Source: Nitrospira tepida (lineage in GTDB: Bacteria; Nitrospirota; Nitrospiria; Nitrospirales; Nitrospiraceae). Taken from it: a DNA stretch of 64,000 bases. Below the pieces are notes generated by a model. That model searched no databases. It was given only the letters and a program-made list of their open reading frames with translations, and had not been told where the DNA came from. Of this stretch, positions 43,100 to 63,800 are shown piece by piece. Position numbers and translations under genes: made by a program. Location of the stretch: positions 2,512,001 through 2,576,000 of the forward strand of contig NZ_OX365700.1 of the NCBI RefSeq assembly GCF_947241125.1. The letters are read 5' to 3'. Numbering within the stretch: position 1 is the stretch's first letter; each line of letters begins with the position of its first letter.

Positions 43100-43116
43100 C
43101 GGGCCGCCCACCTGCC

Positions 43117-44295: not shown

Positions 44296-44362
44296 GGTTG
44301 CTGAGCTACTCATCATGCATGGCGACATGGACCACCAATGTCTCCGATCGGCGGGCGCGCAC

Positions 44363-44392
44363 ATTATAGACAGTACTTAGTCGGGATTCCAA
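44363..44392 (-). promoter_or_regulatory. Putative sigma-70 promoter of the RND operon
   Basis: On the minus strand TTGGAA (44387-44392), 18-base spacer and a perfect TATAAT (44363-44368). It would start transcription near 44356, just ahead of the plausible start codons of the adaptor gene. Confidence 0.6.
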
Positions 44393-44504: not shown

Positions 44505-45965
44505 TTAGTGAGACTTCTGCGGAGGCAACGGGGACATCGACGCCGGCGCCAATAATGACGAGGGAAGCTTGCCGCCGAGATCCTGAACCAGCCGGCGAAA
44601 GTCTTCGGATTGATAGAGCAGTCGGGCGGCGACTTCGCGGAGACGGTCGATCTGTTCCTCCGATAGATCGAAACTGGTCGGGAAGTTGAGAAACGTTTCC
44701 TGCTCTTTGTAGTCCGAGAGCGCGCTGAAGGCGACTTCCGCGGCATAAAACTCGATCGGCTCTTGATCCGGCGCAGTCTCCTGCCGATGAACGGACCAGC
44801 CCTTGACCATCCGTCGGAGGAGTTCCATCGATTCGAAATTGTAGCTGTTGATCATGGCCGAGAATGACACATCGCTGATATTGTCCAGGCCGGGCGTTTC
44901 TTCCAGCAAACTCCAATAGCGAGTAGACCGTTTCGTCTCGGCGTTGACTATGATAAAGGCCACCCGCTTGACGTGTTCAATCCCTCGCTGCTTGAACGCG
45001 CGGGAAGGATCGCCGCTCGCGATCAAGAAGTCCAAGTATCCTCGCACCCCGAGGTTATCGCTGATGCCGCCGTCAACCAGATGGATGTAGGGTTTGCCTT
45101 CCCAATCTTGGTACGAACGCAACTGTCTCGCCAAGCGATAGGCACGACTCGTGATGTCCCGTCTCCCAAGAGCCTCCGTCATCCAGGGTTCTTCCTGATA
45201 CCCACATTGACCCGCATAATTGCGGATGGTGATGGCGGTGAACGGACCGGGAAGGGAAGCCGAAGCCGCCACCGCTCGGGCCAGAGGAAACCGCGAGAGG
45301 TCGGAACAAATTAACCCGAATTGAAGCCGCGAAAACGAAAAATAGTGGCCGTCCACGATATCGGTGGCTTGGATAAAGAGGTCCGGTCCTCTTTGGGAAT
45401 CGAGATCCTTGTAGGTGGCTCCGTGAAACAGCAGATCATCAAAATATTCCGCCTCGAGATCGGTCCGGCTGAAATACACGGATGCCAACCGCCATAGATT
45501 GATCGGGTTCAGCAGCCTTCCAACCAGACCCCAGGTGACATTCCGGCTGAGAAACTGGTGACGAAAGTCCGTGAAGATCCGTTCGCCGCGAAGGGCTAGA
45601 GAGGCGGCCGTCACGCTCCCGCCTGAGACACCCGTGACGATGTCTATCTCGTCGAAGAGGCGATGCGTGAGTCGCGTCTCGGGAAGGGCAGGCCTACGGG
45701 GCGGCGCCGGAACCTCGACTCGGGCCATGGCTTCGAGCACCCCATAGGCCAACGCGGCGGCACGGGTCCCTCCGCCGGAAAAGGATACGACCAAGAGGAG
45801 TTCATCGGATCGATTGGGAGAGCTGATCGACGGGTGGGCCGGCTCATAGCGCTCAAGCTTCGGGTTCACCGGATAGTGGGCGCAGCCGGTCTCGAACAGG
45901 AGGATGACCGCGAGGATGGTTATCCGAACCCATGACGTTTTGGGAAGGGACGAGAACGACGGCAC
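44505..45965 (-). CDS. Patatin-like phospholipase, lipoprotein
   Basis: 486-residue lipid acyl hydrolase with a lipoprotein signal (ILAVILLFETGC), so it is probably in the periplasm or outer membrane. Catalytic features are intact: oxyanion loop VSFSGGGTRAAALAYG, nucleophile elbow GVSGGSV (G-x-S-x-G), and the Asp of the dyad in LVDGGISDNLG. The GTG start at 45965 follows AGAGGTCC. Its promoter region carries the CTGTCA-N4-TGACAG dyad with a TAGAAT placed 23 bases away on the minus strand, tying this gene to the regulon described at 46032. Role inferred: membrane lipid turnover under stress. Confidence 0.9.
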   Translation of the reverse strand: MPSFSSLPKTSWVRITILAVILLFETGCAHYPVNPKLERYEPAHPSISSPNRSDELLLVVSFSGGGTRAAALAYGVLEAMARVEVPAPPRRPALPETRLTHRLFDEIDIVTGVSGGSVTAASLALRGERIFTDFRHQFLSRNVTWGLVGRLLNPINLWRLASVYFSRTDLEAEYFDDLLFHGATYKDLDSQRGPDLFIQATDIVDGHYFSFSRLQFGLICSDLSRFPLARAVAASASLPGPFTAITIRNYAGQCGYQEEPWMTEALGRRDITSRAYRLARQLRSYQDWEGKPYIHLVDGGISDNLGVRGYLDFLIASGDPSRAFKQRGIEHVKRVAFIIVNAETKRSTRYWSLLEETPGLDNISDVSFSAMINSYNFESMELLRRMVKGWSVHRQETAPDQEPIEFYAAEVAFSALSDYKEQETFLNFPTSFDLSEEQIDRLREVAARLLYQSEDFRRLVQDLGGKLPSSLLAPASMSPLPPQKSH

Positions 45966-46031
45966 AGGTCTGGACCTCTTAGGGACATCACGAGAACCGT
46001 GACTCGATAGCGCCGACTTGAGAATAGAGCC

Positions 46032-46076
46032 ATTCTAGGGTGAGCGTCCTCCTCGTCATACTGTCAGAATTGACAG
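46032..46076 (-). promoter_or_regulatory. Composite promoter 1: dyad CTGTCA-N4-TGACAG, 23 bases, TAGAAT (patatin)
   Basis: The dyad is 46061-46076. Read on the minus strand, the -10-like TAGAAT is at 46037-46032, exactly 23 bases past the dyad, and no -35 is present. It would start transcription near 46025, 60 bases before the patatin start. On the plus strand the matching position reads GGTCCT, so the antiporter gene is not the target by this rule. Confidence 0.75.
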
Positions 46077-46257
46077 ATCTGGTTGCAGCGACCATCCGAG
46101 GTCCTGTGTGAATCTCGCCGATCAACCGGGCGGTGTCGCGGTTCGCGTCATCTGTTCGGCCTCGAATGCGCGGGAACGACGGTATCGGCGCAGTTCATCG
46201 GTCCCTTCACATTCGCGGATTGGCCGCGTATCCTGTCACCCCTCGCGGGGGGTTCCG

Positions 46258-47427
46258 ATGAATACCTATTTGCATCTGGACGAGATCGTTTTGGCCGTCA
46301 CGCTCCTACTCATGATCAGCGCGGTGGCAATTCCGCTCGCCCGCAGGTTCGGAATGGGCGCCGACCTCGGGCTGTTGATCGCCGGCGTCATCCTGGGGTC
46401 CTCGCACATATTGGGGCCCACCCAGGTTGACCGCCTGCGGGAAATCTCCGAACTGGGCGTGGTCTTCTTTTTGTTCCTTATCGGCCTTGAACTCGACCTT
46501 CGGAAAGTCTGGTCGTTGCGACGTTATGCCGTTGTGCTGGGAACGTTGCAGGTGCTGGTGACTGGATTCGTCCTCATGTTCTACTGGCGTCTGTTCGCGC
46601 CCACCTGGCCGCTGGCCCTCCTCTTGGGACTGGTCATTTCCAACTCCTCCACCGCCTTGGTGCTGCAAATGCTCGCCTCCAAGCGGGAGTTGGACCAGGA
46701 GCACGGCCGGGCGGCCTTCGGTATCTTGCTGTTCCAAGATTTGGCGGTGGTGCCCATTATGGTTCTGGTACCGGTGTTTGCGGGAACCGGATCGGCGGAG
46801 TCCATATCCTGGTGGGACACCGGTCGGACCTTCGGGACCATGTTGGTCCTATTCGGCTTTGGTCGAGTAGTTTGTCCATGGCTGTTTCGCCTCACCCTCG
46901 CTCGGAACATGACCGAGAGCTTCACGGCCGTGATTTTCATTGCGCTCCTCGGCAGTGCGTGGCTGGCGTCTCGTGCCGGACTCTCGATGGCGTTGGGCGC
47001 TTTCCTCATGGGCCTGGCCTTTTCCGGTACAGCTCATCAACGGGGGATTGAGCAGGAAGTCACGCCGTTCAAAAACCTCCTATTGGCGTTGTTCTTTGTC
47101 TCCGTCGGCCTCTCGTTGGACCTGACCGTCCTGACCGGGCACACGACGAAACTGCTGATGCATGTGGTCGTGATCGTCCTGGTCAAAACCGCGGTACTCT
47201 ATGCAGCCGCCAGATCCCTGTCCATGGGGCATCGTCAGGCTGTGCGACTGTCATTTCTCTTATCGCAGGGCGGTGAGTTCGGCTTTGTGATCCTGAGCAC
47301 CTTGCTCGCCTCGGGCGTTGTGACTCCGCTCCAATTCGCGTCCGGCACCATGGTGATTGCGCTGACGATGATTGCCACTCCGCTGCTCGACCAAATCGGG
47401 ATCAGGTTGAGCCGGCGAGCGACATAG
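46258..47427 (+). CDS. Kef/CPA2-type cation:proton antiporter
   Basis: 390-residue inner-membrane protein with about 12 spans. Family marks: GADLGLLIAGVILGSSHILG, ISELGVVFFLFLIGLELDLR, LLGLVISNSSTALVLQML, GILLFQDLAVVPIMVLVPVF and FLLSQGGEFGFVIL. There is no C-terminal nucleotide-binding (TrkA-N) domain, so it is a minimal version. Likely a role in potassium or sodium and pH control. Start ATG 46258 follows CGGGGGGTTCCG. I see no clear promoter for it. The dyad 180 bases upstream fits the divergent patatin gene better. Confidence 0.9.
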   Translation: MNTYLHLDEIVLAVTLLLMISAVAIPLARRFGMGADLGLLIAGVILGSSHILGPTQVDRLREISELGVVFFLFLIGLELDLRKVWSLRRYAVVLGTLQVLVTGFVLMFYWRLFAPTWPLALLLGLVISNSSTALVLQMLASKRELDQEHGRAAFGILLFQDLAVVPIMVLVPVFAGTGSAESISWWDTGRTFGTMLVLFGFGRVVCPWLFRLTLARNMTESFTAVIFIALLGSAWLASRAGLSMALGAFLMGLAFSGTAHQRGIEQEVTPFKNLLLALFFVSVGLSLDLTVLTGHTTKLLMHVVVIVLVKTAVLYAAARSLSMGHRQAVRLSFLLSQGGEFGFVILSTLLASGVVTPLQFASGTMVIALTMIATPLLDQIGIRLSRRAT

Positions 47428-47467
47428 ATCGTCGCCGGCCGGAGGCCCTGCGGATCGGGCAGGGGGC

Positions 47468-47512
47468 CTGTCATTTCTGACAGTACTCCCTTCGCCGTAT
47501 CAAGGGTATGAT
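47468..47512 (+). promoter_or_regulatory. Composite promoter 2: dyad, 23 bases, TATGAT
   Basis: Dyad CTGTCATTTCTGACAG at 47468-47483, 23-base gap, TATGAT at 47507-47512. Drives the outer-membrane protein at 47565 and probably the lipoprotein behind it. Predicted transcript start is near 47519. Confidence 0.75.
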
Positions 47513-47564
47513 CCTGTCCGCGGTTAGCGCCGAACGTCCGTCACTTGGAGCCGCCGGATGACAG

Positions 47565-48614
47565 GTGTCTTCTCGTAAGATTCTGAGATCCTGCCGTACG
47601 GCGAGAGGCAGGGGAACGAGAACAGGGGCAGCCTGGTTTCCGGCGCTGGTAGTCATCGGCTTGTCGCATATGACAGGCGTTGCGCGGAGTCTCGATTCGG
47701 CCTGGGCTCACGAAGCATCACCTAGCGTCATAAGTGAAGACAGTGTTCCGGCCGATCAGGACCCGGAAGAGCAGAGAGCGAAGGGGTCCAAGTCGGAGGG
47801 CGAGCCGGGACCGGAAGGCCCTCCGAAGGAACCACGGTTCCTTCCGCCTCGACTGAGGCCTAGGGTTTTGACTCCTGAAGTACAAGCTGAAGCGGAGAGG
47901 CTCAAGAAGCTTGCGGCCAAATACGGGACCGATCCGACGGCCATCGTCGGCCGAGTGCAACTGACCACCCAATATGCGAATCTGCCTCACGGCGCCCAAG
48001 CCAGGGACAGCACGCTGCGGGTGGATCTCCCATTCCGAAGCAATTGGCTGTTTCGGGTGGATGTGCCCTTCCTAAAATGGACCGATCCGAATCGCCCGGG
48101 GAGCCTGAGCGCGCAAGGCCTGAGCGACCTCGCCGTCGCAGCGGGATGGCGCGCCTATAACACGCCCGAATACGGATTCTTCATCGGCGTGATCTCCACG
48201 TTCCCTACCGCCGACGAGAATACGTTAGGTCTTGGAAAATACACCGTTGGCCCGCTCATTGCCACGGCCCGGTTCCTCCCGCGATGGGAGTCCTTTTTGT
48301 TCGGGGTGTTCCAGCATCAGGTGTCGGTTGGCGGCGACCCGGCCCGTTCTGACTTCGAGGTCACCAGGGCCTCAATGCAAATCAATACGATCTGGCCCGA
48401 GCGCTGGTGGACTATCCTGCAGGGAGTGTGGCAGGTCAATTGGGAGCGCAATGCGAAGAGCAGCATGACGTTTGAATTTGAACTGGGCCGGAATCTGATC
48501 GGTCGGCTCGGCGCGTATGTGCGTCCAGGTGTGGGCTTATGGGGGCGTGACCTCATTGGCGCATATGAGTGGAATGTCGAAGTTGGTGTTCGCTACATGT
48601 TCGGGTCGTTCTAA
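47565..48614 (+). CDS. Outer-membrane beta-barrel protein of unknown function
   Basis: 349 residues. A signal-like N-terminus (PALVVIGLSHMTGVARSLDS), a long charged Pro/Glu-rich linker (about 50-110), then a barrel-like region with alternating polar and aromatic strands (VQLTTQYANLPHGAQARDST ... ending in VGVRYMFGSF with terminal Phe). Family not recognised; it resembles MetA-pathway or transporter-type barrels only in general. The GTG at 47565 is tentative. It is the first gene after composite promoter 2. Confidence 0.62.
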   Translation: MSSRKILRSCRTARGRGTRTGAAWFPALVVIGLSHMTGVARSLDSAWAHEASPSVISEDSVPADQDPEEQRAKGSKSEGEPGPEGPPKEPRFLPPRLRPRVLTPEVQAEAERLKKLAAKYGTDPTAIVGRVQLTTQYANLPHGAQARDSTLRVDLPFRSNWLFRVDVPFLKWTDPNRPGSLSAQGLSDLAVAAGWRAYNTPEYGFFIGVISTFPTADENTLGLGKYTVGPLIATARFLPRWESFLFGVFQHQVSVGGDPARSDFEVTRASMQINTIWPERWWTILQGVWQVNWERNAKSSMTFEFELGRNLIGRLGAYVRPGVGLWGRDLIGAYEWNVEVGVRYMFGSF

Positions 48615-48626
48615 ACGTCAGACAAC

Positions 48627-48655
48627 CCTGTCGCATCGGCGAGGACGGCGACAGG
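48627..48655 (+). terminator. Stem-loop between two genes (attenuator or processing site)
   Basis: Eight-base stem CCTGTCGC / GCGACAGG with a 13-base loop, only 30 bases before the lipoprotein start and with no T run. It may stabilise or partly terminate the upstream transcript. Confidence 0.45.
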
Positions 48656-48684
48656 ATATCAACCCCTTTACTGAGGAGGACATC

Positions 48685-48951
48685 ATGCGCAAACACTTTA
48701 GTCTGGCCTTGGCATTGTTCGCCTCCACCGTCATGACCGCCGGCTGCACTAACTATTACCGGGTGACCGATCCGGCGTCCGGCAAGTCTTATTACAGCAC
48801 CGAAGTCAAGGAAACCGGCAAAGGGGGAGCCGTGAAAATCAAGGACGCGAAAACCGGGAGCACGGTCACGTTGCAATCCTCCGAGGTGAAGGAGATTTCC
48901 GAGGAGGAGTACAAGGCGGGGATTGCGAGGCAGTCGGGTTCTGCGAAATAG
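48685..48951 (+). CDS. Small lipoprotein
   Basis: 88 residues. Lipoprotein signal ending VMTAGC, then a small beta-rich domain (YYRVTDPASGKSYYSTEVKE, TGSTVTLQSSEVKEISEEEY). The mature pattern of short strands and a VTLQSSEVKEISE end is seen in small envelope lipoproteins, but I assign no family. The start follows GAGGAGGACATC. Probably co-transcribed with the barrel protein upstream. Confidence 0.8.
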   Translation: MRKHFSLALALFASTVMTAGCTNYYRVTDPASGKSYYSTEVKETGKGGAVKIKDAKTGSTVTLQSSEVKEISEEEYKAGIARQSGSAK

Positions 48952-49021
48952 TCTCGGACCGGACAAGTGCGCTTGCCGATCACGTTCCGGCAATGGTCGG
49001 TCGGACCGGCACTGCGCGATC

Positions 49022-49066
49022 CTGTCAATTTTGACAGTGTCGCCGCTTTTCTCCCCGGAATATCAT
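49022..49066 (+). promoter_or_regulatory. Composite promoter 3: dyad, 23 bases, TATCAT
   Basis: Dyad CTGTCAATTTTGACAG at 49022-49037, 23-base gap, TATCAT at 49061-49066. Predicted start is near 49073, 72 bases before the SYLF gene. A separate TATAAT at 49096-49101 lies downstream and could be a second promoter, without a clear -35. Confidence 0.75.
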
Positions 49067-49144
49067 GGAGTCGTATTCTCGGGTGCTCGATCACGTATAA
49101 TCCCGAGACCGAATTTGTTCTCTATGCGAGAAAGGAGCCGCGTG

Positions 49145-49708
49145 ATGTGGAATATCAAGCACCTGTGGGCTGTGTCTGTCACCCTGAGTCTGGTCTTCGT
49201 GACAGCCGGATGGCTGGCGGACCAGGCGAGCGCTGCGACCGCCAGAGAAATCGATGTCAGCGTGGACGTGGCCTTGGAAGAATTTCAGAAGCAAGTGGGG
49301 GGAGGAAAGGAGTTTCTGGAAAGCAGCAAGGGAGTGCTGGTCCTGCCGAAGGTGCTGAAAGCCGGGGTCGGATTCGGCGGTGAATATGGGGAAGGGGCGC
49401 TCCGCATCGCAGGCAAAACTGAGGACTACTACAACATTGCCTCGGCGTCGTTCGGATTCCAGTTCGGAGGACAGATGAAGACCGTGCTCCTCGTGTTCAT
49501 GGACGAGGAAGCACTGTACAAATTCCGCACGGGCGAAGGCTGGAAGGCGGGAGTCGACGGGTCCGTCGCACTGGTCACGCTTGGAGCGGGCGGTTCGATT
49601 GACACGGCCAAGATCAAGGATCCGATCGTCGGGTTTGTCTTCGGTCAAAAGGGTCTCATGTACAACCTGACCTTGGAGGGGTCCAAATTCACCAAAATGC
49701 ACAAGTGA
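49145..49708 (+). CDS. SYLF/YSC84-domain exported protein 1
   Basis: 187 residues with a signal peptide (HLWAVSVTLSLVFVTAGWLA, cut near ASAAT) and a SYLF domain: SKGVLVLPKVLKAGVGFGGE, NIASASFGFQFGGQMKTVLL, EEALYKFRTGEGWKAGVDGS, GFVFGQKGLMYNLTLEGSKF. SYLF proteins bind lipid in eukaryotes; bacterial versions are periplasmic and of unknown function. ATG at 49145 follows AAAGGAGCCGCGTG. A second, different SYLF protein occurs at 53496. Confidence 0.85.
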   Translation: MWNIKHLWAVSVTLSLVFVTAGWLADQASAATAREIDVSVDVALEEFQKQVGGGKEFLESSKGVLVLPKVLKAGVGFGGEYGEGALRIAGKTEDYYNIASASFGFQFGGQMKTVLLVFMDEEALYKFRTGEGWKAGVDGSVALVTLGAGGSIDTAKIKDPIVGFVFGQKGLMYNLTLEGSKFTKMHK

Positions 49709-49891
49709 CAGAGATTCATCTGTCGTCATGAGTTCAAGGTGGATGGCGCTTATCCTGCGCCACCACCTGCGCGGTCCCATCCCAATTGTCTCCCGCCTGA
49801 TCACATTGACGCGACCGTTCCAGTCGATGATCATTGCGCACATTTTGACATCCTGTGCCATCGTATCCGGAGATCGAAGGAGGGACATGCC

Positions 49892-51724
49892 ATGAGGGGA
49901 CTCACCAGGCGTCTGAGATTGGTAGTGATGATCGCAGGAACAGCCTTGGTCATGACGAATCTACCGCACCCTCTGCCGCTATGGGCTGCCGGTGATCAGA
50001 CAAAACCGAGCGTCAAAGAGCTGATCAAGGGCGCAAAGGAACGGCGCGCCGTCGAGACGTTCCAGCCGGAACAATTGGCCGGCACGCAAATACCGGACGA
50101 TCCACTCGGTCGCCAGACCCCGCGATCCGCCGTCAAGGGATTTCTTAAGGCCACGAGAGAGCGGGACTATGCAACGGCGTCGGAATATCTGGATCTCCGC
50201 AACCTGCCTCCCGGTCTTGACCTAAATCAGGGACCTGATCTGGCGCGCCAATTCAAGATTATTCTGGATCGCGCCCTCTTCATCGATCTTGAACTCCTGA
50301 GTTCGTCTCCTGAAGGCGATCGCCAAGATAATCTACCGGCAGGGCGCGAACGGGTCGGCCGTCTTGCCGCCGGCGACAAGTCCTACGATATCCTGCTGCA
50401 ACAGGTTCCCTATGGAGACGGCGCCCACATCTGGAAGTTCGCGTCCACGACGACGGCGGACATCCCGGCGCTCTATAAGGAATATGGCTATGGGCCGCTC
50501 GAACGGTTCTTCCCGGCCTGGATGTTCGACTATTCGATCCTCGGCATTCACCTCTGGCAATGGGTTCTGACCGTCACCGTCCTGCTCCTGCTGTACCCCG
50601 TCGCCACGTGGATCACCTGGCTGGGAGGACGGATTCTGCGGCTGTTCAGCGTCCAACGCGCGGAGAATCTGGAACGGTTTTTTGCCGCTCCTCTCAAGCT
50701 GCTCGTCTGGATCCTGCTCGCCAGAGCCTTGAGCCCGCTCATTGGGCCGTCGGTCGCCTTCAGCGCGCTCATGCAGGTCGCGACGATTCCGCTTTTTGCC
50801 TTAGCGTGGCTGCTGATTCGGTTGGTGGATTTCGGCGCCTCTCGCATCCTTGGGGACCTTGACCGCAGGGGTTTGGCCGGCGCGCGGGTGCTGGTCACGC
50901 CCGTATCACGGTTGGTCAAGCTGGTGGTGATGACCGGCATCATGCTGCTCTGGTTGGACAACATGGGATTCAAGGTCACGACCTTGCTGGCAGGCCTCAG
51001 CATCAGCGGCGTGGCGGTCGCCCTCGCCTCCCAGAAAAGCCTGGAGAATATTTTCGGAGCCCTGACGTTGTTTTCCTCGCAACCGGTGCGCGTCGGGGAC
51101 TTCTGCCGCTTCGGCGACCAGGTGGGGACCGTGGAAGAAATCGGCCTGCGGGCCACTCGAATCCGCACGCTCGATCGGAGCCTGATCACCGTGGCCAACG
51201 GCGAATTTGCCAATCTGCACCTGGACAACTACTCCGTCCGCGATCGATTCTGGTACCACCCTCAGATTGGCCTGCGGTACGAGACCACGCCGGACCAGAT
51301 CCGATACATTCTCGTCGAAGTCCAGATGATGCTCTATGCGCATCCCAAAGTCCTCCCGGAGCCACTCTGGGTTCGGTTTCTCGGGTTTGGCGATTATTCG
51401 TTGAATGTGGGCGTCTTTGCCTACATCGGGGTGACGGATTACACGGAATCCCTGGAGATCGCCGAAGACCTGAATCTGCGAATCATGGACATCGTCGCGG
51501 CGGCGGGATCGGACTTTGCCTTCCCGGCTCAGATTCAGTATGAACTGCCGGGCAAGCCGGTCGATGAAAGCCGCGTTCATGCAGTCGAGGCGCAGGTTAA
51601 GGAATGGAAGGCCCAGCGAGCCCTGTACCTGCCGAACCTACCCAAGGAGAAGATCACCGAAATCCGAGGGTCGCTGGCCTATCCGCCGCCAGGCTCGCCG
51701 GGAGCCGTCCCAACCTCCTCCTGA
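49892..51724 (+). CDS. MscS-family mechanosensitive channel with N-terminal domain
   Basis: 610-residue inner-membrane channel. A signal-like N-terminus, a periplasmic domain (about 35-195, with RSAVKGFLKATRERDYATAS), four to five membrane spans (starting LWQWVLTVTVLLLLYPVATW), then the MscS pore helix and beta domain (GLSISGVAVALASQKSLENI, TLFSSQPVRVGDFCRFGDQV, ITVANGEFANLHLDNYSVRD). It opens on membrane tension to release solutes after hypo-osmotic shock. The start follows AAGGAGGGACATGCC. It may be read through from the SYLF promoter. Confidence 0.9.
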   Translation: MRGLTRRLRLVVMIAGTALVMTNLPHPLPLWAAGDQTKPSVKELIKGAKERRAVETFQPEQLAGTQIPDDPLGRQTPRSAVKGFLKATRERDYATASEYLDLRNLPPGLDLNQGPDLARQFKIILDRALFIDLELLSSSPEGDRQDNLPAGRERVGRLAAGDKSYDILLQQVPYGDGAHIWKFASTTTADIPALYKEYGYGPLERFFPAWMFDYSILGIHLWQWVLTVTVLLLLYPVATWITWLGGRILRLFSVQRAENLERFFAAPLKLLVWILLARALSPLIGPSVAFSALMQVATIPLFALAWLLIRLVDFGASRILGDLDRRGLAGARVLVTPVSRLVKLVVMTGIMLLWLDNMGFKVTTLLAGLSISGVAVALASQKSLENIFGALTLFSSQPVRVGDFCRFGDQVGTVEEIGLRATRIRTLDRSLITVANGEFANLHLDNYSVRDRFWYHPQIGLRYETTPDQIRYILVEVQMMLYAHPKVLPEPLWVRFLGFGDYSLNVGVFAYIGVTDYTESLEIAEDLNLRIMDIVAAAGSDFAFPAQIQYELPGKPVDESRVHAVEAQVKEWKAQRALYLPNLPKEKITEIRGSLAYPPPGSPGAVPTSS

Positions 51725-51745
51725 GGAGGCAAGGATTGGATCACG

Positions 51746-52756
51746 GTGAGCTTGCTGAGATCCATCGAACGGTTCTGCCGCATCGGCCTTATCCACCTGC
51801 TTATCCTCGGCGCAACCGCCTCCGGCGCCGAAGAATGGTCCGTCAATGCCGTCGGCAATCTTCACTATACCGATGATGTGGCCCTGTTTTCGGCCACGCG
51901 CCGCTTAAGCCTGCACGGCGACCCTACCCAGCCTGTACTGGATTCGGTCCTTACCGGCAAGGGTTCGGATATGGTCATCGAGCCGGAGCTGACTGTTGCA
52001 CGACCCTTCGCCTCGCCCTGGGGGCGCACGGAGGTTGCCGTTCGCGGGCAAGCTTTCGTCTACGCGGTGAACCCTCGCTTCAACCACGGAAGCTTCGGCA
52101 TCCAGGCCCTGCACGAATTCACGCCGGACACGAAAATGCGCGTCCGCTTCTACTCCACGCCGAACCTGCTGTTGGGCGACAACGAAAGCAAGCGCACCGA
52201 CTCCCTGGCTGAGGAGCGAGTCACCAGCCACATCGGATCGGTGAGGCTGGAGCAACGATTGTCGGACAGTTGGGAACTGCGCCTATTGGCGCGCTATGGC
52301 GTTCGACTCTACAACGATGCCTTTGAGCACCAGAACACAAATTTTTGGACAGTCGGCCCGCATCTGGTCTGGCACATGACGGAACGCATGGCGTTCACCC
52401 TGGGATACCATTACGAGCGGGGGTTGGCGGACGGCCGTCATCAGCCGGAGCTGCGCGATGATACGTCCTACATCAACCATTACGTCGCCCTGGGATTGGA
52501 GGCCGAGTTGACGAAGCGACTGGGACTCGAACTGGGCTTCCATTACGAGCGAAACAATTGGACCAGCGGCATCGTGGGAGATGAGCGCAAAGACGGTCAT
52601 GAGACCGTCGTGCTGGGAGAGATCAACGCCCGCTATCGCCTCTCCGAACGGTGGAATGTGCTGCTTGGTTTTCAACGGTCGCAACGCAAGCAGAGCTTCG
52701 AGGAGGGCTTGGTGCACAATACCAATGTCACCCTTGGCGCCTCCTATGTGTTTTGA
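51746..52756 (+). CDS. Exported outer-membrane beta-barrel protein
   Basis: 336 residues with a signal peptide (IGLIHLLILGATASG) and barrel-like strands throughout (WSVNAVGNLHYTDDVALFSA, then VEPELTVARP-like and RYRLSERWNVLLGFQRSQRK), ending NVTLGASYVF with terminal Phe. No family recognised. GTG 51746 is tentative, since the nearest purine-rich run lies 17 bases before it. It follows the channel gene by 21 bases and is likely in the same transcript. Confidence 0.65.
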   Translation: MSLLRSIERFCRIGLIHLLILGATASGAEEWSVNAVGNLHYTDDVALFSATRRLSLHGDPTQPVLDSVLTGKGSDMVIEPELTVARPFASPWGRTEVAVRGQAFVYAVNPRFNHGSFGIQALHEFTPDTKMRVRFYSTPNLLLGDNESKRTDSLAEERVTSHIGSVRLEQRLSDSWELRLLARYGVRLYNDAFEHQNTNFWTVGPHLVWHMTERMAFTLGYHYERGLADGRHQPELRDDTSYINHYVALGLEAELTKRLGLELGFHYERNNWTSGIVGDERKDGHETVVLGEINARYRLSERWNVLLGFQRSQRKQSFEEGLVHNTNVTLGASYVF

Positions 52757-52829
52757 GTTCGAGCGTCTGACTGTCCTCATCACGGGTGGCGCCGGTCTCT
52801 CCGAGACTCTCAATACCTCATGATCTGAC

Positions 52830-52874
52830 CTGTCAGAATTGACAGTTGTCGCCATACCCGCTGAACCGTAGGAT
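52830..52874 (+). promoter_or_regulatory. Composite promoter 4: dyad, 23 bases, TAGGAT
   Basis: Dyad CTGTCAGAATTGACAG at 52830-52845, 23-base gap, TAGGAT at 52869-52874. Sits 90 bases before the LEA14-like gene, the first of a run that also has SYLF protein 2 and a FadL-like barrel. The dyad is identical in sequence to copy 1. Confidence 0.75.
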
Positions 52875-52963
52875 CGCTCCACGATCTGGCCACCGATCGG
52901 GAGGGCCAAGGTGGACTTCTGCGGTCTCGGGGTAGACCCACGCCATTATGAAGGAGAACGCAT

Positions 52964-53458
52964 ATGCAGCGACGGCCACATTGCGGTGGTGCCACCCGGA
53001 CATGGCCTATGCTGATTGTCGCGGCAGTCACAGCCTGTTCGACGATGCCGAAGGACTTTGAGACACCTAAATTTGGCATCGCCGACATCGCCCCAAAGGA
53101 CGTGGCTGTTTTCGAACAACGGTTCGACGTGCAATTGCGTATTCAAAATCCGAACAACTTCGATCTGGGCATTAACGGCATCCGCTTTCAGATCGACCTC
53201 AACGAGAAGGAGTTTGGCAACGGCATGTCCGGCCAGGCCGTGACCATCCCGCGCTTCAGTTCCGAGATGATCACCGCGGAAGTCATCACCGGCCTCGGCG
53301 GATTCCTGCGCCAGATGCAGGAGATGAGCGCATCAGCGACCAAGCTGCGCTACCGCCTCAAAGGCAAGGCCTTCGCGCAAGCGCCCAGCAACTTCACCAT
53401 CCCGTTCGATGAAAGCGGGGAGATTGATTTCAATCTGGCGCCGCCAGCCGAGAAGTAG
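52964..53458 (+). CDS. LEA14/WHy-domain lipoprotein
   Basis: 164 residues: lipoprotein signal ending VAAVTAC, then one water-stress/hypersensitive-response (LEA type 2) domain with the characteristic FDVQLRIQNPNNFDLGINGI and FQIDLNEKEFGNGMSGQAV. The Pro-Asn-Asn pair is the family core. Such domains are tied to desiccation tolerance in plants and to stress in bacteria; the role here is inferred. Start follows AAGGAGAACGCAT. Confidence 0.85.
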   Translation: MQRRPHCGGATRTWPMLIVAAVTACSTMPKDFETPKFGIADIAPKDVAVFEQRFDVQLRIQNPNNFDLGINGIRFQIDLNEKEFGNGMSGQAVTIPRFSSEMITAEVITGLGGFLRQMQEMSASATKLRYRLKGKAFAQAPSNFTIPFDESGEIDFNLAPPAEK

Positions 53459-53495
53459 CACACGTTGTCGGCCATTGCACAAGAGGAGGTCTCAC

Positions 53496-54230
53496 ATGAT
53501 TGTCGAACAGCAGAAGCACCGAGGAACACACCGAAGGCAGATGCGTAGCATGAGGTTGGGACTCGGCGCGGTGGCGCTGACCATCCAGGCACTGATGATC
53601 GCGCCTCCATCCTATGCTGCCGACTTCGCCGAACAGCAACAACTCGTGGACAAGGCGCGCCTTACCATAGAGGCATTTGCCGCCGACCCCAGTGTGGGCG
53701 GTCCAATTCGCGAATTGAAGTCTGAGGCCAAAGCGCTCTTCATTGTCCCACAATTTGTCCGAGGGGCCTTCGTCTTCGGCGGCGCGGGAGGCAGCGGAGT
53801 CTTGCTGGTGCGGGATGAGAAAACCGGCGACTGGTCCGAACCGGCCTTTTACACCATCGGGTCGGCCAGTTTCGGCCTGCAAATCGGAGGGGACGTATCG
53901 GAGATGGTGCTGGTGGTGAGAACCCAGAAAGGGCTGGAGGAATTTTATCGAACCGATTTCAAGCTGGGCGCGGATGTCTCCATGGCCGTCGGCCCGGAAG
54001 GGGAAGGAGTCTCGGTTCGTGGCATCGCCGCCGATATCCTGTCCTATGCTCGGAAGAAGGGCATCTTCGCTGGCATCTCGGCCGAGGGAGCGATCATCGC
54101 TGTGTCGAATGAGTCCAATCGAGCCTACTACGGGAAGGATGTCCGGCCCACGGACATCGTCGTCAAGCGGAGCGTCAGCAATCCCAAGTCAGCCGACCTG
54201 CGGAAAACCGTGGAAAAGATGATGAAGTAG
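53496..54230 (+). CDS. SYLF/YSC84-domain exported protein 2
   Basis: 244 residues. A signal peptide (VALTIQALMIAPPSYA), then a SYLF domain: EAKALFIVPQFVRGAFVFGG, YTIGSASFGLQIGGDVSEMV, EEFYRTDFKLGADVSMAVGP and IFAGISAEGAIIAVSNESNR. It differs clearly from SYLF protein 1 (49145), so this is an older split, not a recent copy. The YGKDVRPTDIV end is typical of Gram-negative members. Ribosome site GAGGAGGTCTCAC. Second gene of the LEA14-SYLF-FadL set. Confidence 0.88.
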   Translation: MIVEQQKHRGTHRRQMRSMRLGLGAVALTIQALMIAPPSYAADFAEQQQLVDKARLTIEAFAADPSVGGPIRELKSEAKALFIVPQFVRGAFVFGGAGGSGVLLVRDEKTGDWSEPAFYTIGSASFGLQIGGDVSEMVLVVRTQKGLEEFYRTDFKLGADVSMAVGPEGEGVSVRGIAADILSYARKKGIFAGISAEGAIIAVSNESNRAYYGKDVRPTDIVVKRSVSNPKSADLRKTVEKMMK

Positions 54231-54255
54231 CACCGGTTCTCAGTGAAGCAGCGAT

Positions 54256-55575
54256 ATGAGGCGACCCGTGCCACGAAGAGTGGCGATTACAGCCACGCTC
54301 ACCACGATGCTGATGGCTTCGGCTCAGGCGATGGCCGGCGGTCTCTCGCTCTATGAAATCGGCACAGCCGATGTCGGACTGGCTGGTGCGGGCTGGGCAG
54401 CCCGTGCGCAGGATCCAGCCACGCTCCTCAAGAATCCGGCCGGCATGAGTTTGCTCGAGGGCAACCAGTTCCAGGCAGGCGCTCAACTGCTCTATGGGAG
54501 CATTGGGTTCAGCCCAAGTGGCGGAACGACGGTGGATGGAAACGACGGTGGAAACCCGCTTGGTGTCTTACCCGGCGCCAGTCTGTTCTATGTCCACGGT
54601 TTGGGTCGGGATATCAAACTGGGTATCGGCCTGTTTTCCAATTTCGGGCTCGGCTTGAATTACAACAGCGGGTGGGTCGGCCGGTATCACGGGCTGGAGA
54701 GCACGTTGATCGGTGTGAGCGTCATGCCGGGTCTCAGCTATCGCATCACCGACCAACTCTCCATCGGGGCTGCCGCCAACGTCATGGTCGGCTACCTCAA
54801 CTACAGCGCCGCCGTCAACAACCGGCTCTTCCTTGATGTGCCGGACGGGCAAATGCAGGTGAAGGATACGACCGCAGGAGCCGGCGGAAATGTTGGAGTA
54901 TTGTTCGAACCCAAGAAAGGGATGCGATTTGGCGTCACCTACTATTCACAAGTGAAGCTGAATTTTTCCGATGTCCCCGAGTTCACCGGTCTGTCAGGCC
55001 CGATCGGAACCGCTTTACAAAACCGGGGCCTGCTGGGTAATCAACTCGATTTGGGGGTGAGAGTCCCTCAGCAAGTAATGCTGAGCGCCTACCATGAGTT
55101 CACCGATCGGTGGGCCTTGATGCTGGACTTTGGATGGCAAGACTGGAGCCAGTTCGGAAAAGTGGATATCGGGGTGGCCGGAGACACGCTGACTCCGAGC
55201 GGGACCATCAAGGTGAACTATCAAGACACCTACCATGTCGCTCTGGGAAGCCGCTATCGCCTGAATGAAGCCTGGCTGATCAATACCGGCTTCGCCTGGG
55301 ACAGTTCAATGCTGAAGGACCAGGACCGCACGGTCACCCTCCCGATCGGCCAGGTTTTCCGGTTCGGGCTTGGCGCCGAATGGCAAGCCAGCCCCACGCT
55401 CAACGTGGCCTTTAGTTACGAATTGGCCTACAGCGGCACTATGTCCGTCAACCAGGATCGCGGACCGCTGGGCGGCAGCGTCGTCGGACAGTTTCCCGGC
55501 GCCTACATCAATTTCTTCCAGGTGAGTTTCATCTGGGGCAGCGGCGAACGCAACCCGTCGAACCGGAGCGGTTAA
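54256..55575 (+). CDS. FadL/OmpP1-like outer-membrane transporter
   Basis: 439 residues with a signal peptide, then the family opening GGLSLYEIGTADVGLAGAG followed by ARAQDPATLLKNPAGMSLLE (the NPAGM motif that marks the plug). A barrel of long strands follows (YNSGWVGRYHGLESTLIGVS; TYYSQVKLNF; VPQQVMLSAYHEFTDRWALM), ending in NFFQVSFIWGSGERNPSNRSG, without a terminal Phe. FadL relatives import long-chain fatty acids or other hydrophobic molecules. Third gene after composite promoter 4. The relic at 55614 starts about 40 bases after its stop. Confidence 0.85.
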   Translation: MRRPVPRRVAITATLTTMLMASAQAMAGGLSLYEIGTADVGLAGAGWAARAQDPATLLKNPAGMSLLEGNQFQAGAQLLYGSIGFSPSGGTTVDGNDGGNPLGVLPGASLFYVHGLGRDIKLGIGLFSNFGLGLNYNSGWVGRYHGLESTLIGVSVMPGLSYRITDQLSIGAAANVMVGYLNYSAAVNNRLFLDVPDGQMQVKDTTAGAGGNVGVLFEPKKGMRFGVTYYSQVKLNFSDVPEFTGLSGPIGTALQNRGLLGNQLDLGVRVPQQVMLSAYHEFTDRWALMLDFGWQDWSQFGKVDIGVAGDTLTPSGTIKVNYQDTYHVALGSRYRLNEAWLINTGFAWDSSMLKDQDRTVTLPIGQVFRFGLGAEWQASPTLNVAFSYELAYSGTMSVNQDRGPLGGSVVGQFPGAYINFFQVSFIWGSGERNPSNRSG

Positions 55576-55915: not shown

Positions 55916-56770
55916 ATGGATGGCACCGTCATGAGACGCTGGCTCGCCGAACCATTGCTGCACTTTCTGGTCTTGGGCGGACTGTTGTTCGGTGCCCACG
56001 GCTGGATCAATCGTGGAGGCGGCGACGAACCGCGCGTCCTGCGCCTGACTACGGCGGAGGTGAACTGGCTCACGGAGACCTGGACGCGGCAATGGCAGCG
56101 ATCGCCCACCAAAGAGGAACTCCAAGGCCTCGTCGCGGACTATGTGAAGGAAGAACTCCTTGCCCGTGAGGCGAAAGCCATGGGATTGGACGAGAACGAT
56201 ACGATCGTCCGCCGCCGGCTGGCGCAGAAGATGGAATTTCTCGTGCAGGATACGGCCCGGCTTGCCGAGCCAGCAGAAGCCGAATTGAGGCGGCTTTATG
56301 AGTCCGAATCAGCCCGCTACCGGACACCAGCGCGTACCTCATTTTCCCAGGTCTATTTCAAAACGGAGCCCGCTGCGAGAAAAGGGCTTGCGGACCTCAT
56401 GCAAGCTCATGTTGAGCAATTGGGCGATAGCTCGCTGCTGGAGCGCGACTATCCCGGCTTGGATGAGCAGGTCGTCACGAGACTGTTCGGAGAGAAGTTT
56501 GCCGGAAACGTATTCGCTCTGGAACCAGGCCGATGGCATGGCCCCATTCAGTCGGGGTACGGATTTCATCTCGTGAACGTCAGCGACCGGGAGGCCCCTC
56601 GATTGCGGCCCTTTGATGAGGTGCGGGCTCAGGTGCTGGAGGATTGGCATCGCGTGCAACAAGCCAAGGCGAACGAACAATTTGTTGCCGGATTGTTGAA
56701 AAAATATGAGGTGGTCGTCGATGAAACGGTCAGGCCATTGATTGGACCATTGGCAAAGCTTGCGCAATGA
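55916..56770 (+). CDS. Membrane-anchored parvulin-type peptidyl-prolyl isomerase
   Basis: 284 residues. An N-terminal hydrophobic anchor (LLHFLVLGGLLFGAHGWI), a SurA/PrsA-like helical part (about 45-130: EELQGLVADYVKEELLAREA), and a rotamase domain (about 140-240: RTPARTSFSQVYFKTEPAAR, ... RLFGEKFAGNVFALEPGRWH and GYGFHLVNVSDREAPRLRPF). It likely faces the periplasm and helps fold a secreted partner, possibly the DUF3604 protein or sulfatase beside it. ATG 55916 (or 55931). Its stop overlaps the HupE start (ATGA), so the two are coupled. Confidence 0.86.
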   Translation: MDGTVMRRWLAEPLLHFLVLGGLLFGAHGWINRGGGDEPRVLRLTTAEVNWLTETWTRQWQRSPTKEELQGLVADYVKEELLAREAKAMGLDENDTIVRRRLAQKMEFLVQDTARLAEPAEAELRRLYESESARYRTPARTSFSQVYFKTEPAARKGLADLMQAHVEQLGDSSLLERDYPGLDEQVVTRLFGEKFAGNVFALEPGRWHGPIQSGYGFHLVNVSDREAPRLRPFDEVRAQVLEDWHRVQQAKANEQFVAGLLKKYEVVVDETVRPLIGPLAKLAQ

Positions 56771-57753
56771 GGTGCGCCATTGTCATTGCATGGCTCGCTG
56801 CGTTACTTCTCTCCGTTCCAGCGTCTGCCCATGAGATGCGCCCGGCCTATCTCGAACTGCACGAAGAAAAGACCGGCGAGTTTCATGTCCTGTGGAAGAC
56901 ACCGATGCGCGGAGCGATGAGACTGTCGCTCTCGCCGGAACTGTCAGGGGCCACGGAGAGGCTCACGCCTGTGACCGCCCGCGAACACGGAGGCGCAGCG
57001 ATCCAGACATGGCGACTCCGGGCGGTTGAGCCTTTACGCGGCCAGTCGATCCGGATCGGCGGACTGGAACGCACGATGACCGATGCGCTGGTGCGCATAG
57101 AGTTCCTGGACGGCACGACCTGGACGCAGCGGCTGACGCCGGCCCACCCTGCGGCGGCCATACCGACGCTGCAATCCGGCCTCAGGGTCGCGGGCGTCTA
57201 TCTTACGCTGGGAATCGAGCACATTTTACTCGGAATCGATCATCTCCTCTTCGTCCTCGCGCTTCTGATCATCACGGAGGGAGCATGGCGTCTGGTGAAG
57301 ACCATCACTGCGTTTACGATCGCACACAGCATCACGCTCGCGTTGGTCACGCTTGGATTCGTGCATGTGCCACAGGCGCCCGTGGAGGCGGTCATTGCGC
57401 TCTCCATTGTATTCGTGGCGGCGGAGATCGTTCACGCGCGCGGCGGCCGGGAAGGGCTCACGGCCCGCGCGCCGTGGATCGTGGCGCTCGTGTTCGGGCT
57501 GCTGCACGGTTTCGGATTCGCGGGTGCCTTGAGTGAGGTGGGTCTGCCGCAGGGACAGATTCCGGCCGCCTTGCTCTGTTTCAATGTCGGCGTCGAATCT
57601 GGGCAATTGCTCTTTATCGGCGCCGTACTGAGCCTGGCGAACATCACCCGACCTGTCTGCGGTCCGCTTCCGCCCTGGGCGAGCCTTGTTCCGCCGTACG
57701 CCATCGGCAGTGTCGCAGTGTTCTGGGCGCTTCAGCGTGTTTCAGCGTTCTGA
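56767..57753 (+). CDS. HupE/UreJ_2-family membrane protein
   Basis: 328 residues. Signal sequence, then a periplasmic domain (about 22-135: HEMRPAYLELHEEKTGEFHV) and six to seven spans with His-rich motifs: GIEHILLGIDHLLFVLALL, ITAFTIAHSITLALVTLG, AEIVHARGG, LLHGFGFAGAL. The His/Asp motifs suggest metal transport or binding; the classic HupE and UreJ are nickel permeases, but the metal for this subfamily is not known to me. Translationally coupled to the PPIase gene. DUF3604 follows ten bases later. Confidence 0.88.
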   Translation: MRCAIVIAWLAALLLSVPASAHEMRPAYLELHEEKTGEFHVLWKTPMRGAMRLSLSPELSGATERLTPVTAREHGGAAIQTWRLRAVEPLRGQSIRIGGLERTMTDALVRIEFLDGTTWTQRLTPAHPAAAIPTLQSGLRVAGVYLTLGIEHILLGIDHLLFVLALLIITEGAWRLVKTITAFTIAHSITLALVTLGFVHVPQAPVEAVIALSIVFVAAEIVHARGGREGLTARAPWIVALVFGLLHGFGFAGALSEVGLPQGQIPAALLCFNVGVESGQLLFIGAVLSLANITRPVCGPLPPWASLVPPYAIGSVAVFWALQRVSAF

Positions 57754-57763
57754 GGAGGACACC

Positions 57764-59707
57764 ATGAAGGCATGCGGACGTTCAACGCTCGCCGCACTGA
57801 TCGCCATTATCCTGGCGCCGTGGGCGTGGGCTTACCAGCAGAGCGACATCGGATCGGCCGACAAGGCCGCGCTGGAAAAGGTGCACCCTTCAAAGCCCGC
57901 GTACTCGCCGTATGCGGGCCGCAATTATCCGACGAGACCATTCTTCGGCGACACGCATCTACACACGTCGTTCTCCATGGACGCCGGCGTGTTCGGCGCC
58001 CGGCTTACCCCTCGCGATGCCTACCGCTTTGCCAAAGGAGAAGAGATTACTTCGAATACAGGTCAGCCGGTCAAGCTGTCACGGCCGCTGGATTTCCTCG
58101 TCGTTGCTGACCACTCCGATGGATTTGGATTTTTCCCGCAGTTGATGAGCGGGGATCCCGTGTTGTTGGCAACCCCGCAAGGGCGAAAGTGGTACGACCA
58201 AATCAAGTCCGGCCATGGCGCCGAGGCTGCGATCGATATCATCATGAGCTTCGGCAAGAACCACCTCCCCAAGGGCTTCCCGCTTCCCGGCACGCATGCC
58301 TATCGCTCCGCCTGGCAGGAGGTCATCAAGACTGCGGATGCCTACAACGATCCAGGCCGCTTTACCGCCTTTATCGGGTACGAGTGGACCTCCAACACGG
58401 GCGGGAACAATCTGCACCGGAACGTCATCTTCCGAGAAAACGGCGCAAAGGCCAGGCTTGTCGAGCCTTTCACCACACTACCGCCGCTCGGCAGCGACAA
58501 TCCTCAGGATCTGTGGAAATGGATGGCCGCCACGGAAGAAAAAACGGGCAGTGAAGTGCTCGCGATCGCGCATAACGGCAATCTCAGTAACGGTCTGATG
58601 TTTCCCATGGTGGAGGCGTTCGGCAAGAAGATAGACCGTCAGTACGCCGAGACGCGAGTGAAATGGGAGCGGCTCTACGAAATCACCCAGACGAAGGGGA
58701 CCGGCGAAGCACACCCGGCCCTTTCCCCCAACGATGAATTCGCCAACTTCGAGATCTGGGACAAGGGCAACCTCGACGGAAGCGTCGCAAAGACGAAGGA
58801 CATGCTGGAATACGAGTATGCGCGATCCGCGCTGAAGAACGGTCTCGTGCTGGAAGCGAAGCTGGACACGAACCCCTACAAGTTCGGGCTTATCGGCAGC
58901 AGCGATGCGCATACGGGCCTTGCCGCGTTAGAGGAGGAGAGCTTCTTCGGCAAGACTGCCCCGCAGGAGCCAAGCCCGGAGCGCATGACCAAGACGTTCT
59001 TTCAGCACCCGAAGACAGGCGTAAAAGTGATGGATTGGGAGGTCTCGGCCGCCGGCTACGCCGCCGTCTGGGCGACGGAGAACACGCGCGAGGCGATCTT
59101 TGACGCCATGCAGCGCCGTGAAACCTACGCCACCACAGGGCCGCGCATGCTCGTGCGGTTCTTTGGAGGCTGGGACTTCGAGCCGGACGATGCGCATAAC
59201 CGCCTCCCGGCAGCCATTGGTTACGGCAAAGGCGTGCCGATGGGCAGCGAATTGACCGATGCGCCGAAGGGGAAATCGCCCACCTTCCTCGTCGCGGCAT
59301 TGAAAGACCCCATCGGCGCGAATCTGGACCGTATCCAGATCATCAAAGGCTGGCTCGACGCCAAGGGAGCCCTGCACGAGAAGATCTATGACGTCGTCTG
59401 GGGCGATGCTGAGAAGCGTCGACATGGCAAGGACGGCAAGTTGTCGGCCGTCGGCAACACCGTGGATGTGGAACATGCCACCTGGACTAACACGATCGGC
59501 GATCCGGAATTGATTACGGTCTGGAAAGACCCGGACTTCGATGCCAGTCAACGCGCGTTCTACTACGCTCGGGTCATCGAGATCCCAACGCCGCGCTGGA
59601 CCGCCTACGACGCGAAACGTTTCGGCGTGAAGCCGCTTCCCGGCACCGCAATGGTGCTTCAGGAGAGGGCCTACACGAGCCCCATATGGTACACGCCGGG
59701 GAATTAG
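57764..59707 (+). CDS. DUF3604 exported protein
   Basis: 647 residues with a signal peptide (LAALIAIILAPWAWA). The sequence carries a metal-site pattern like that of PHP hydrolases: GDTHLHTSFSMDAG (HxH), VVADHSDGFGF (DH), AIAHNGNLSNG (His) and SSDAHTGLAALEEESFF (DxH). This suggests a metal-dependent hydrolase of a phosphate or similar ester, but no substrate is established. Ribosome site GAGGAGGACACC right after the HupE stop. Genomic partnership with HupE_UreJ_2 and parvulin is a pattern I recall from other bacteria. Confidence 0.88.
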   Translation: MKACGRSTLAALIAIILAPWAWAYQQSDIGSADKAALEKVHPSKPAYSPYAGRNYPTRPFFGDTHLHTSFSMDAGVFGARLTPRDAYRFAKGEEITSNTGQPVKLSRPLDFLVVADHSDGFGFFPQLMSGDPVLLATPQGRKWYDQIKSGHGAEAAIDIIMSFGKNHLPKGFPLPGTHAYRSAWQEVIKTADAYNDPGRFTAFIGYEWTSNTGGNNLHRNVIFRENGAKARLVEPFTTLPPLGSDNPQDLWKWMAATEEKTGSEVLAIAHNGNLSNGLMFPMVEAFGKKIDRQYAETRVKWERLYEITQTKGTGEAHPALSPNDEFANFEIWDKGNLDGSVAKTKDMLEYEYARSALKNGLVLEAKLDTNPYKFGLIGSSDAHTGLAALEEESFFGKTAPQEPSPERMTKTFFQHPKTGVKVMDWEVSAAGYAAVWATENTREAIFDAMQRRETYATTGPRMLVRFFGGWDFEPDDAHNRLPAAIGYGKGVPMGSELTDAPKGKSPTFLVAALKDPIGANLDRIQIIKGWLDAKGALHEKIYDVVWGDAEKRRHGKDGKLSAVGNTVDVEHATWTNTIGDPELITVWKDPDFDASQRAFYYARVIEIPTPRWTAYDAKRFGVKPLPGTAMVLQERAYTSPIWYTPGN

Positions 59708-59731
59708 GAAGAGACATGATACGGGATACGC

Positions 59732-59835
59732 GAGGACAATCTCATATTCGATGACCGTCGGCTTCCCTGCGTCGGCACCGTCACCCTGTTGGTGAACGAC
59801 AAAAAGTCCTCGAAGCGCGCATTGAACACACTCAG
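59732..59835 (+). pseudogene. Decayed C-terminal fragment of an arylsulfatase (frameshifted)
   Basis: GTVTLLVNDKK (59774-59806) matches GTGTILVNGQK of the intact sulfatase's C-terminal domain. The match continues as EARIEHTQ (59812-59835) in the +1 frame, against EGRIEHTQ; RIEHTQ is identical. One missing A in the A-run at 59801-59805 would explain the shift. The codons differ at most wobble positions, so the fragment is old. The preceding EDNLIFDD stretch may belong to it. It lies 92 bases before the intact gene's start. Confidence 0.75.
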
Positions 59836-59927
59836 GTGGCTGGAAAAGATCAAAGTGCCAGCGGGAGTTCGCGCACAAGAAAGCGCTGTCAGACGAATTC
59901 GGTTGTCCCGATTCAAGGAGACTCAAT

Positions 59928-62357: not shown

Positions 62358-62400
62358 GGCATCAAATCATAGCGACACGAATGATCTAAGGATTCTGACG

Positions 62401-63755: not shown

Positions 63756-63800
63756 CTGTCAGTTTTGACAGTTCCCGGCAATCGGCCCAGTCGATAAGCT
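63756..63800 (+). promoter_or_regulatory. Composite promoter 5: dyad, 23 bases, TAAGCT
   Basis: Dyad CTGTCAGTTTTGACAG at 63756-63771, 23-base gap, TAAGCT at 63795-63800, a weaker -10. It precedes the last, partial gene. A seven-base inverted repeat (GGCCCAG/CTGGGCC) overlaps the downstream side. Confidence 0.65.

Follow-up and report, generated by a model that had tools for sequence, protein, structure and literature searches.

What controls the run of predicted envelope genes at positions 44505 to 55575 of a 64,000-nucleotide stretch of the Nitrospira tepida genome (contig NZ_OX365700.1; hereafter the window)? A preliminary description, made from the sequence alone, had placed most of these genes behind composite promoters, or directly after genes so placed, and had proposed that they respond to membrane and water stress. 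We find that the composite promoters are real: they share the element CTGTCA-N4-TGACAG, a dyad that occurs in seven exact copies in the complete 4.73-Mb source genome (G000), with a TA at a fixed distance of 23 nt. A NarL-type response regulator (RR) encoded beyond the window very probably acts as a class II activator at this fixed composite promoter of a local envelope regulon. Genome positions are obtained by adding 2512000 to window positions.

All seven exact dyads fall inside 44.5 kb of the genome (2558061-2602579; Table 1), and the reversed control pattern has no copy genome-wide. When up to two mismatches are allowed, the window holds six matches compared to a mean of 1.67 in shuffled sequences, and none of 100 shuffles reached six. 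Each of the seven exact sites is followed by a T and, exactly 23 nt beyond the dyad, by TA, on one side only; under the same T and TA criteria, no site was found in a 44-kb control stretch upstream. Two imperfect sites of the cluster also have the T and TA in place, and relatives of the small secreted proteins behind one of them (2583589) carry exact dyads in the related genomes G001 and G022. Imperfect dyads at 98343 and 3701832 of the source genome were dropped, since they have no -10 box at the right place.

The RR gene and that of a soluble PAS/HisKA_3 kinase lie 12-14 kb past the end of the interval; the kinase frame stops just short of the RR frame or runs into it, and an exact dyad (2582083) is found 25 bp after the RR stop codon. 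The RR combines a receiver with a C-terminal GerE/LuxR-type helix-turn-helix and has an adjacent HisKA_3 partner kinase, as in the NarL/FixJ family. We surveyed the co-occurrence of dyad and RR in 99 related genomes (labeled Gnnn). At least two dyads were present in nine of them (G000, G001, G022, G032, G066, G068, G072, G076, and G092), and these are exactly the nine with the best RR matches (450.6 to 191.2 bits). The other 90 genomes contained no dyad (79 genomes) or one (11 genomes); given that the reversed control gave a single match in each of seven relatives, single dyads are near chance level. In genus g2, dyads and RR were found in six of seven genomes, the exception being G063, with no dyad and an RR match of only 175 bits; one of eight genomes of genus g18 and one of four of genus g32 carried dyads. 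Because presence and absence sort within genera, common descent alone is an insufficient explanation. The RR gene lies at most 2.4 kb from an exact dyad in eight of the nine genomes; in G068 the two share a contig but are 22 kb apart.

This association extended to other phyla. Using an alignment of the nine RRs as the query, we scanned named genomes and kept the best 80 of 205 confirmed places, i.e., loci around RR relatives (labeled Lnnn) totaling 1,227,658 bases from Acidobacteria, Lysobacterales, Nitrospira, Planctomycetes, Verrucomicrobia, and others. These loci contained 61 exact dyads, compared to none for a control palindrome of the same composition. Sixty of the dyads are distinct (L096 and L110 overlap), 51 are outside Nitrospira loci, and for 19 of the 61 the RR gene is no more than 400 bp away.

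The recognition helix of the RR shows the same distribution. It reads TVAFHKYR in all nine dyad genomes, whereas the best RR of the other genomes has TVEFHK or TVEYHK in all 21 read of the 90. Nine distinct helices were read among 27 matches in the source genome, and TVAFHKYR occurs only in this RR. Three of the named loci have TVE-type helices; these are too few as a sole control, for which the 21 other genomes serve better. The nine-genome match, the dyads of the named loci against their control, and the correlation with TVAFHKYR together tie the RR to the dyad. A further NarL-type RR gene of the source genome (2511588-2512208, minus strand; helix TVEFHKGR) overlaps the left edge of the window (window 1-208) and has no exact dyad near it.

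Several points weigh against this assignment. The gap between the ninth and tenth RR scores is small (191.2 and 188.7 bits), and it is the helix, not the score, that separates them. Just 33 of the 71 TVA-type named loci have a dyad in the fetched stretch, and none of the nine loci with TVAFHKYQ has an exact dyad nearby. The latter loci (L098, L100, L101, L103, L106, L107, L117, L120, and L157) are mostly from Lysobacterales and other Gammaproteobacteria, and their RRs may use a variant operator. The two imperfect sites of the source genome rest on similarity. Control of the kinase gene itself by the dyad is uncertain, because the side of the dyad that faces the kinase has a TA at 23 nt in G072 and G076 but none there in G001, G022, and G032. 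Finally, RR and dyad could be linked through membership in a single mobile gene cluster, a reading that the cross-phylum result speaks against.

We analyzed promoter geometry in 110 distinct dyads (220 site orientations), excluding L150, L143, L125, and L132, which are the same places as G066, G068, G072, and G076. A TANNNT hexamer was found at 23 nt in 42 of the 220 orientations, compared to 10 at 24 nt, seven at 25 nt, and 0 to 3 at most other offsets; the same peak was seen at 21 of 59 sites from Nitrospirota and at 19 of 51 from other phyla. A plain TA occupied the 23-nt position at 39 of the 59 and 24 of the 51 sites, relative to about three expected from other offsets. Across the 42 aligned promoters, which were chosen for their -10 box, conservation is confined to the core of the dyad, a single T, and the -10 box, and does not extend to the flanks; in 37 of them a T directly follows the dyad. 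The N4 spacer is AT-rich (25% GC). If the -10 hexamer is set at -12 to -7, the center of the dyad falls at about -43.5. No strong hexamer occurs at the usual -35 spacing, and the right half-site was rejected as a TTGACA -35 box since its spacer to the -10 box would be 24 nt. The 23-nt spacing to TANNNT fits a class II activated sigma-70 promoter, in which the activator site is centered near -40 to -43 and the -35 box is poor, and this geometry suggests that the dyad sits where a class II activator would.

CRP-type activators, too, typically use a dyad near -43, and the element could be bound by another regulator, of CRP/FNR, MerR, or ECF sigma type, with the two-component pair a mere neighbor. 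We regard this as very improbable, given that dyad clusters track this RR genome by genome, in four genera and then in several phyla, and that its helix correlates with them. It is hardly credible that the dyads are chance repeats or a mobile repeat without a regulatory role: such an origin would agree with a direct duplication, and with what look by eye like transposase remnants, close to the right edge of the cluster, but shuffled and reversed controls gave none or few, the dyad core, T, and -10 box are conserved when the flanks are not, and the fixed -10 spacing contradicts it.

In the model that we favor, the composite promoter would be the operator of one NarL/FixJ-family RR. The domains of the soluble PAS/HisKA_3 kinase suggest that it responds to an intracellular signal by phosphorylating the RR. 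Judging from the geometry, an RR dimer would then bind CTGTCA-N4-TGACAG near -43.5 and, like a class II activator, bring RNA polymerase to a promoter whose -10 box lies 23 nt past the dyad and which has no strong -35 box in the normal place. Nine such promoters (seven exact dyads and two imperfect ones) would drive a local regulon of patatins, SYLF proteins, barrels, lipoproteins, LEA_2, MscS, FadL, and a pair of small secreted proteins. Further predicted members are a GH63-like enzyme, a protease that is M48-like by eye, and a receiver-only protein with a possible feedback effect on the kinase. The regulon would probably serve to maintain or remodel the cell envelope during a stress that is perceived via the cytoplasm.

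The gene content of the interval largely agrees with the preliminary description (Table 1). Pfam matches bear out the patatin, the two SYLF proteins, the MscS channel, the LEA14/WHy protein, the FadL-like barrel, and the Kef antiporter. Among the outer-membrane barrels, one (51746-52756) has a Pfam match and the other is barrel-like by eye; the latter protein is matched in three related gene clusters at 54, 61, and 71% identity, and the MscS-type channel at 59-62%. The statement that nearly all products are exported also holds, as nine of the ten genes encode a signal peptide or lipobox (N-termini, by eye) and the tenth, Kef, a multi-span inner-membrane protein. The plural "osmotic valves" does not stand, since a single MscS is present. 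SYLF protein 1 narrowly misses the model of the BPSL1445 lipoprotein (NF049970; 194.2 bits, cut-off 200), which would make it kin but not a member, and SYLF protein 2 reaches 57 bits; BPSL1445 is a SYLF protein described as binding lipids or phosphoinositides in an excerpt of a review (PMC10787603). The Kef gene was rejected as a target and is probably a bystander, because there is no TA at 23 nt on its side of dyad 1 and it has no match in the fetched dyad regions of G001, G022, and G032. Rfam and tRNA scans of the window gave no match.

Table 1. Genes and dyads of the interval, the remaining window, and the adjoining genome
Feature	Window position	Genome position (G000)	Strand	Evidence or remark
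Patatin-like lipoprotein, predicted target of dyad 1	44505..45965		-	PF01734 1.3e-16; lipobox by eye
Kef-type Na/H exchanger, probably no target	46108..47427		+	PF00999 (Na_H_Exchanger)
Barrel-like exported protein	47565..48614		+	By eye; no Pfam match
Small YgdI/YgdR-like lipoprotein	48685..48951		+	NF033216 27.4 bits, under cut-off 42 (weak)
SYLF protein 1	49115..49708 (frame 48923-49708)		+	PF04366 (Ysc84) 6.9e-11; start codon uncertain
MscS-type channel	49739..51724		+	PF00924 and PF21082
Outer-membrane beta-barrel protein	51746..52756		+	PF13505
LEA_2/WHy lipoprotein	52964..53458		+	PF03168 4.3e-18
SYLF protein 2	53496..54230 (frame 53409-54230)		+	PF04366 9.3e-32
FadL/TodX-like (Toluene_X) barrel	54256..55575		+	PF03349 8.7e-65
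Five collinear genes: PpiC rotamase, HupE/UreJ, DUF3604, sulfatase, FGE	55916..63552		+	Possible continuation of the dyad-4 unit
Dyad-5 run: ankyrin-like (by eye), lipocalin, DUF4136, MtN3/SWEET, barrel-like (by eye)				Ends just before kinase and RR genes
Dyad 1	46061..46076	2558061	-	-10-like TAGAAT 46032-46037; TA on patatin side only
Dyad 2	47468..47483	2559468	+	-10-like TATGAT 47507-47512
Dyad 3	49022..49037	2561022	+	-10-like TATCAT 49061-49066
Dyad 4	52830..52845	2564830	+	-10-like TAGGAT 52869-52874
Dyad 5	63756..63771	2575756	+	-10-like TAAGCT 63795-63800
Soluble PAS/HisKA_3 kinase		2579441-2581402		Two PAS and a weak third; HisKA_3 8.4e-11; HATPase_c 5.4e-10
NarL-type RR		2581410-2582057 (start near 2581410)		PF00072 1.1e-25; PF00196 (GerE helix-turn-helix) 3.2e-15
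Exact dyad		2582083		-10-like TACCTC
Receiver-only response regulator		2582176-2582658		Behind dyad 2582083
Imperfect site, one mismatch		2583589		T and TA in place; 88 nt before probable ATG of tandem small secreted proteins
Imperfect site, two mismatches		2594926		T and TA in place; before M48-like protease frame
Exact dyad		2602564		-10-like TAAAAT; toward GH63-like gene

The regulon extends past the interval and the window. The five-gene run from PpiC to FGE would be reached only by read-through from dyad 4; its DUF3604, sulfatase, and FGE-family genes form one run (57686-63552) behind HupE/UreJ, and sulfatases are found behind dyads in G032 and G092 too. The gene set found in the right part of the window and in the adjoining genome beyond is also present, in a different order, in the dyad regions of G001, G022, and G032. 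On the left, we tested 16 frames upstream of the patatin gene (2535725-2556364), and the regions fetched from these three relatives contain no match to any of them. The patatin gene adjoins a minus-strand RND efflux operon (window 38376-44364; ACR_tran pump, with adaptor and outer-membrane factor by eye) that likewise has no match in those regions and contains no exact dyad. At the right edge of the cluster, a direct duplication of 1,110 bp (2593308-2594417 and 2603298-2604407; 98.9% identical) adjoins a transposase-like remnant (by eye; 2602640-2603197), and mobile DNA seems to have disturbed this edge.

Although gene order differs, the dyad is retained in front of the target families. Genes for SYLF, patatin, small secreted, receiver-only, and GH63-like proteins have a dyad in front in at least two of the four genomes (G000, G001, G022, and G032), as do the divergent DUF4403 and kinase genes; in G022 and G032 the dyad before patatin is exact but has no TA at 23 nt on the patatin side. 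The same families also follow dyads that lie away from the clusters (SYLF at G001 582541, GH63-like at G022 753930, and DUF2780 at G001 439615). A second patatin of the source genome (2596749) would be reached only via the imperfect site before the M48-like gene. The tandem small secreted proteins (2583693-2584727) are 64% identical to each other and helix-rich, Spy/CpxP-like by eye; the first has no Pfam match. A receiver-only RR lies behind its own dyad near the RR in the source genome, where the dyad is exact, in G001 (2718021) and G022 (2491484), each with one mismatch, and in L118 (5985-6503) and L158 (9286-9693), with an exact or one-mismatch dyad; it is possibly a conserved feedback or phosphate-sink element.

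We also scanned the products of frames behind dyads. From 215 candidates, 76 Nitrospirota and 64 other frames passed the filter, and after four and 12 of these, respectively, were dropped by eye, mostly as antisense, 72 and 52 proteins were scanned with Pfam. Among the best 25 of 64 families in the Nitrospirota set are Ysc84 (5), HisKA_3 (5), sulfatase (4), patatin (4), DUF4403 (3), DUF2780 (3), GH63 (3), and DUF4136 (2); the best 25 of 71 families in the other phyla include receiver (9), GerE (6), HisKA_3 (4), OmpA (2), DUF892 (2), and phosphoketolase (1). Because receiver, GerE, and HisKA_3 domains recur behind dyads, control of the regulators by themselves or by their partners may be frequent. 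A crude signal-peptide heuristic, which misses the patatin lipobox, flags 37 of 63 promoter-side genes as apparently exported, compared to 189 of 533 other genes of the same loci.

The preliminary description read the regulon as a response to osmotic, drying, or lipid-damage stress. Its envelope part is upheld by the SYLF, LEA_2, patatin, lipoprotein, and barrel genes and by the export bias; its water part is unproven. In favor of the latter, two SYLF proteins, LEA_2, MscS, patatins, lipocalin, and FadL occur in one regulon, and the genome has no further SYLF or LEA_2 gene; two of its four patatins are in or near the regulon. In an excerpt of PMC5570939, oxidative and salt stress induced one bacterial WHy protein, and a second is associated with tolerance of freeze-thaw. 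However, the MscS is only one of eight in the genome, a single LEA_2 gene is thin ground, the gene set shared with relatives also contains sugar-phosphate enzymes, a sulfatase, and a GH63-like enzyme, and none of the six Nitrospirota kinases inspected (G000, G001, G022, G032, G072, and G076) has a hydrophobic segment over threshold, i.e., a predicted transmembrane segment. A response to osmotic, drying, or lipid-damage stress is therefore doubtful. A search for an RpoS-like sigma factor, the usual stress regulator, gave five matches, all below the cut-off.

The six soluble kinases fit an internal signal better than turgor. We tentatively consider, with barely more confidence, that a metabolic cue, such as starvation, low oxygen, or redox, acts via the cytosolic PAS domains, with the envelope genes and those for phosphoketolase, PGI, PFK, and the GH63-like enzyme as adaptations to it. 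Further kinase-like frames in L179 and L180 also lack a hydrophobic segment over threshold, but the kinase frames of L140 and L163, from other phyla, have one. The shared set has matches to phosphoketolase in two, PGI in three, PFK in one, and the GH63-like gene in three of the three relatives, and phosphoketolase stands directly behind a dyad in Acidobacterium sp. S8 (L148). Against this, no dyad lies directly before the phosphoketolase, acetate kinase, PGI, or PFK genes of the source genome, which may be outside the regulon here, and none of the three related regions contains a match to acetate kinase.

To our knowledge, few regulons have been mapped in Nitrospira-like and soil bacteria. Our analysis offers a likely regulator, operator, and target list for poorly understood envelope genes, including SYLF, WHy, DUF4136, DUF4403, DUF2780, and receiver-only proteins. 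The apparent code ties a short helix to a 12-base site across phyla, and regulons might thus be predictable from sequence alone in many uncultured genomes and be testable with one purified protein. More speculatively, the NarL-type RRs with TVAFHKYR might form a class that spans phyla, shares one fixed design of operator and promoter, and has acquired a mobile and repeatedly reordered set of genes for exported envelope proteins and carbon-storage enzymes as a general envelope and energy stress response of Nitrospirota and Acidobacteriota, with the change from E to A in the helix helping to set specificity.

The nearest solved relatives of the RR by sequence are VraR, NarL, and DesR, the best reaching only 105 bits. 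The system shares with other NarL/FixJ systems a receiver joined to a GerE/LuxR helix-turn-helix, a HisKA_3 kinase, and a palindromic operator upstream of the promoter; it differs in pairing the operator CTGTCA-N4-TGACAG with the recognition helix TVAFHKYR, and no description of this motif, this helix, or such a system was found among the matches listed for the open-licence literature. In the DosR/DevR dormancy regulon, one NarL-type RR controls scattered stress genes; both its operator and its gene set differ from those here. As excerpted in PMC4682653, the LuxR-type RR of the BarA-UvrY/GacA system also acts on a palindrome, there of 18 nt, but this palindrome is TGTAAG-N6-CTTACA and serves chiefly small RNA genes, in contrast to the dyad and envelope protein genes described here; with that operator as the criterion, we rejected membership of this system. 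The CrbS/CrbR acetate regulon, in an excerpt of PMC5715377, similarly depends on a LuxR-type RR that requires an inverted repeat at its promoters, but its motif (ACTU) and targets are different and its kinase is fused to a solute symporter domain.

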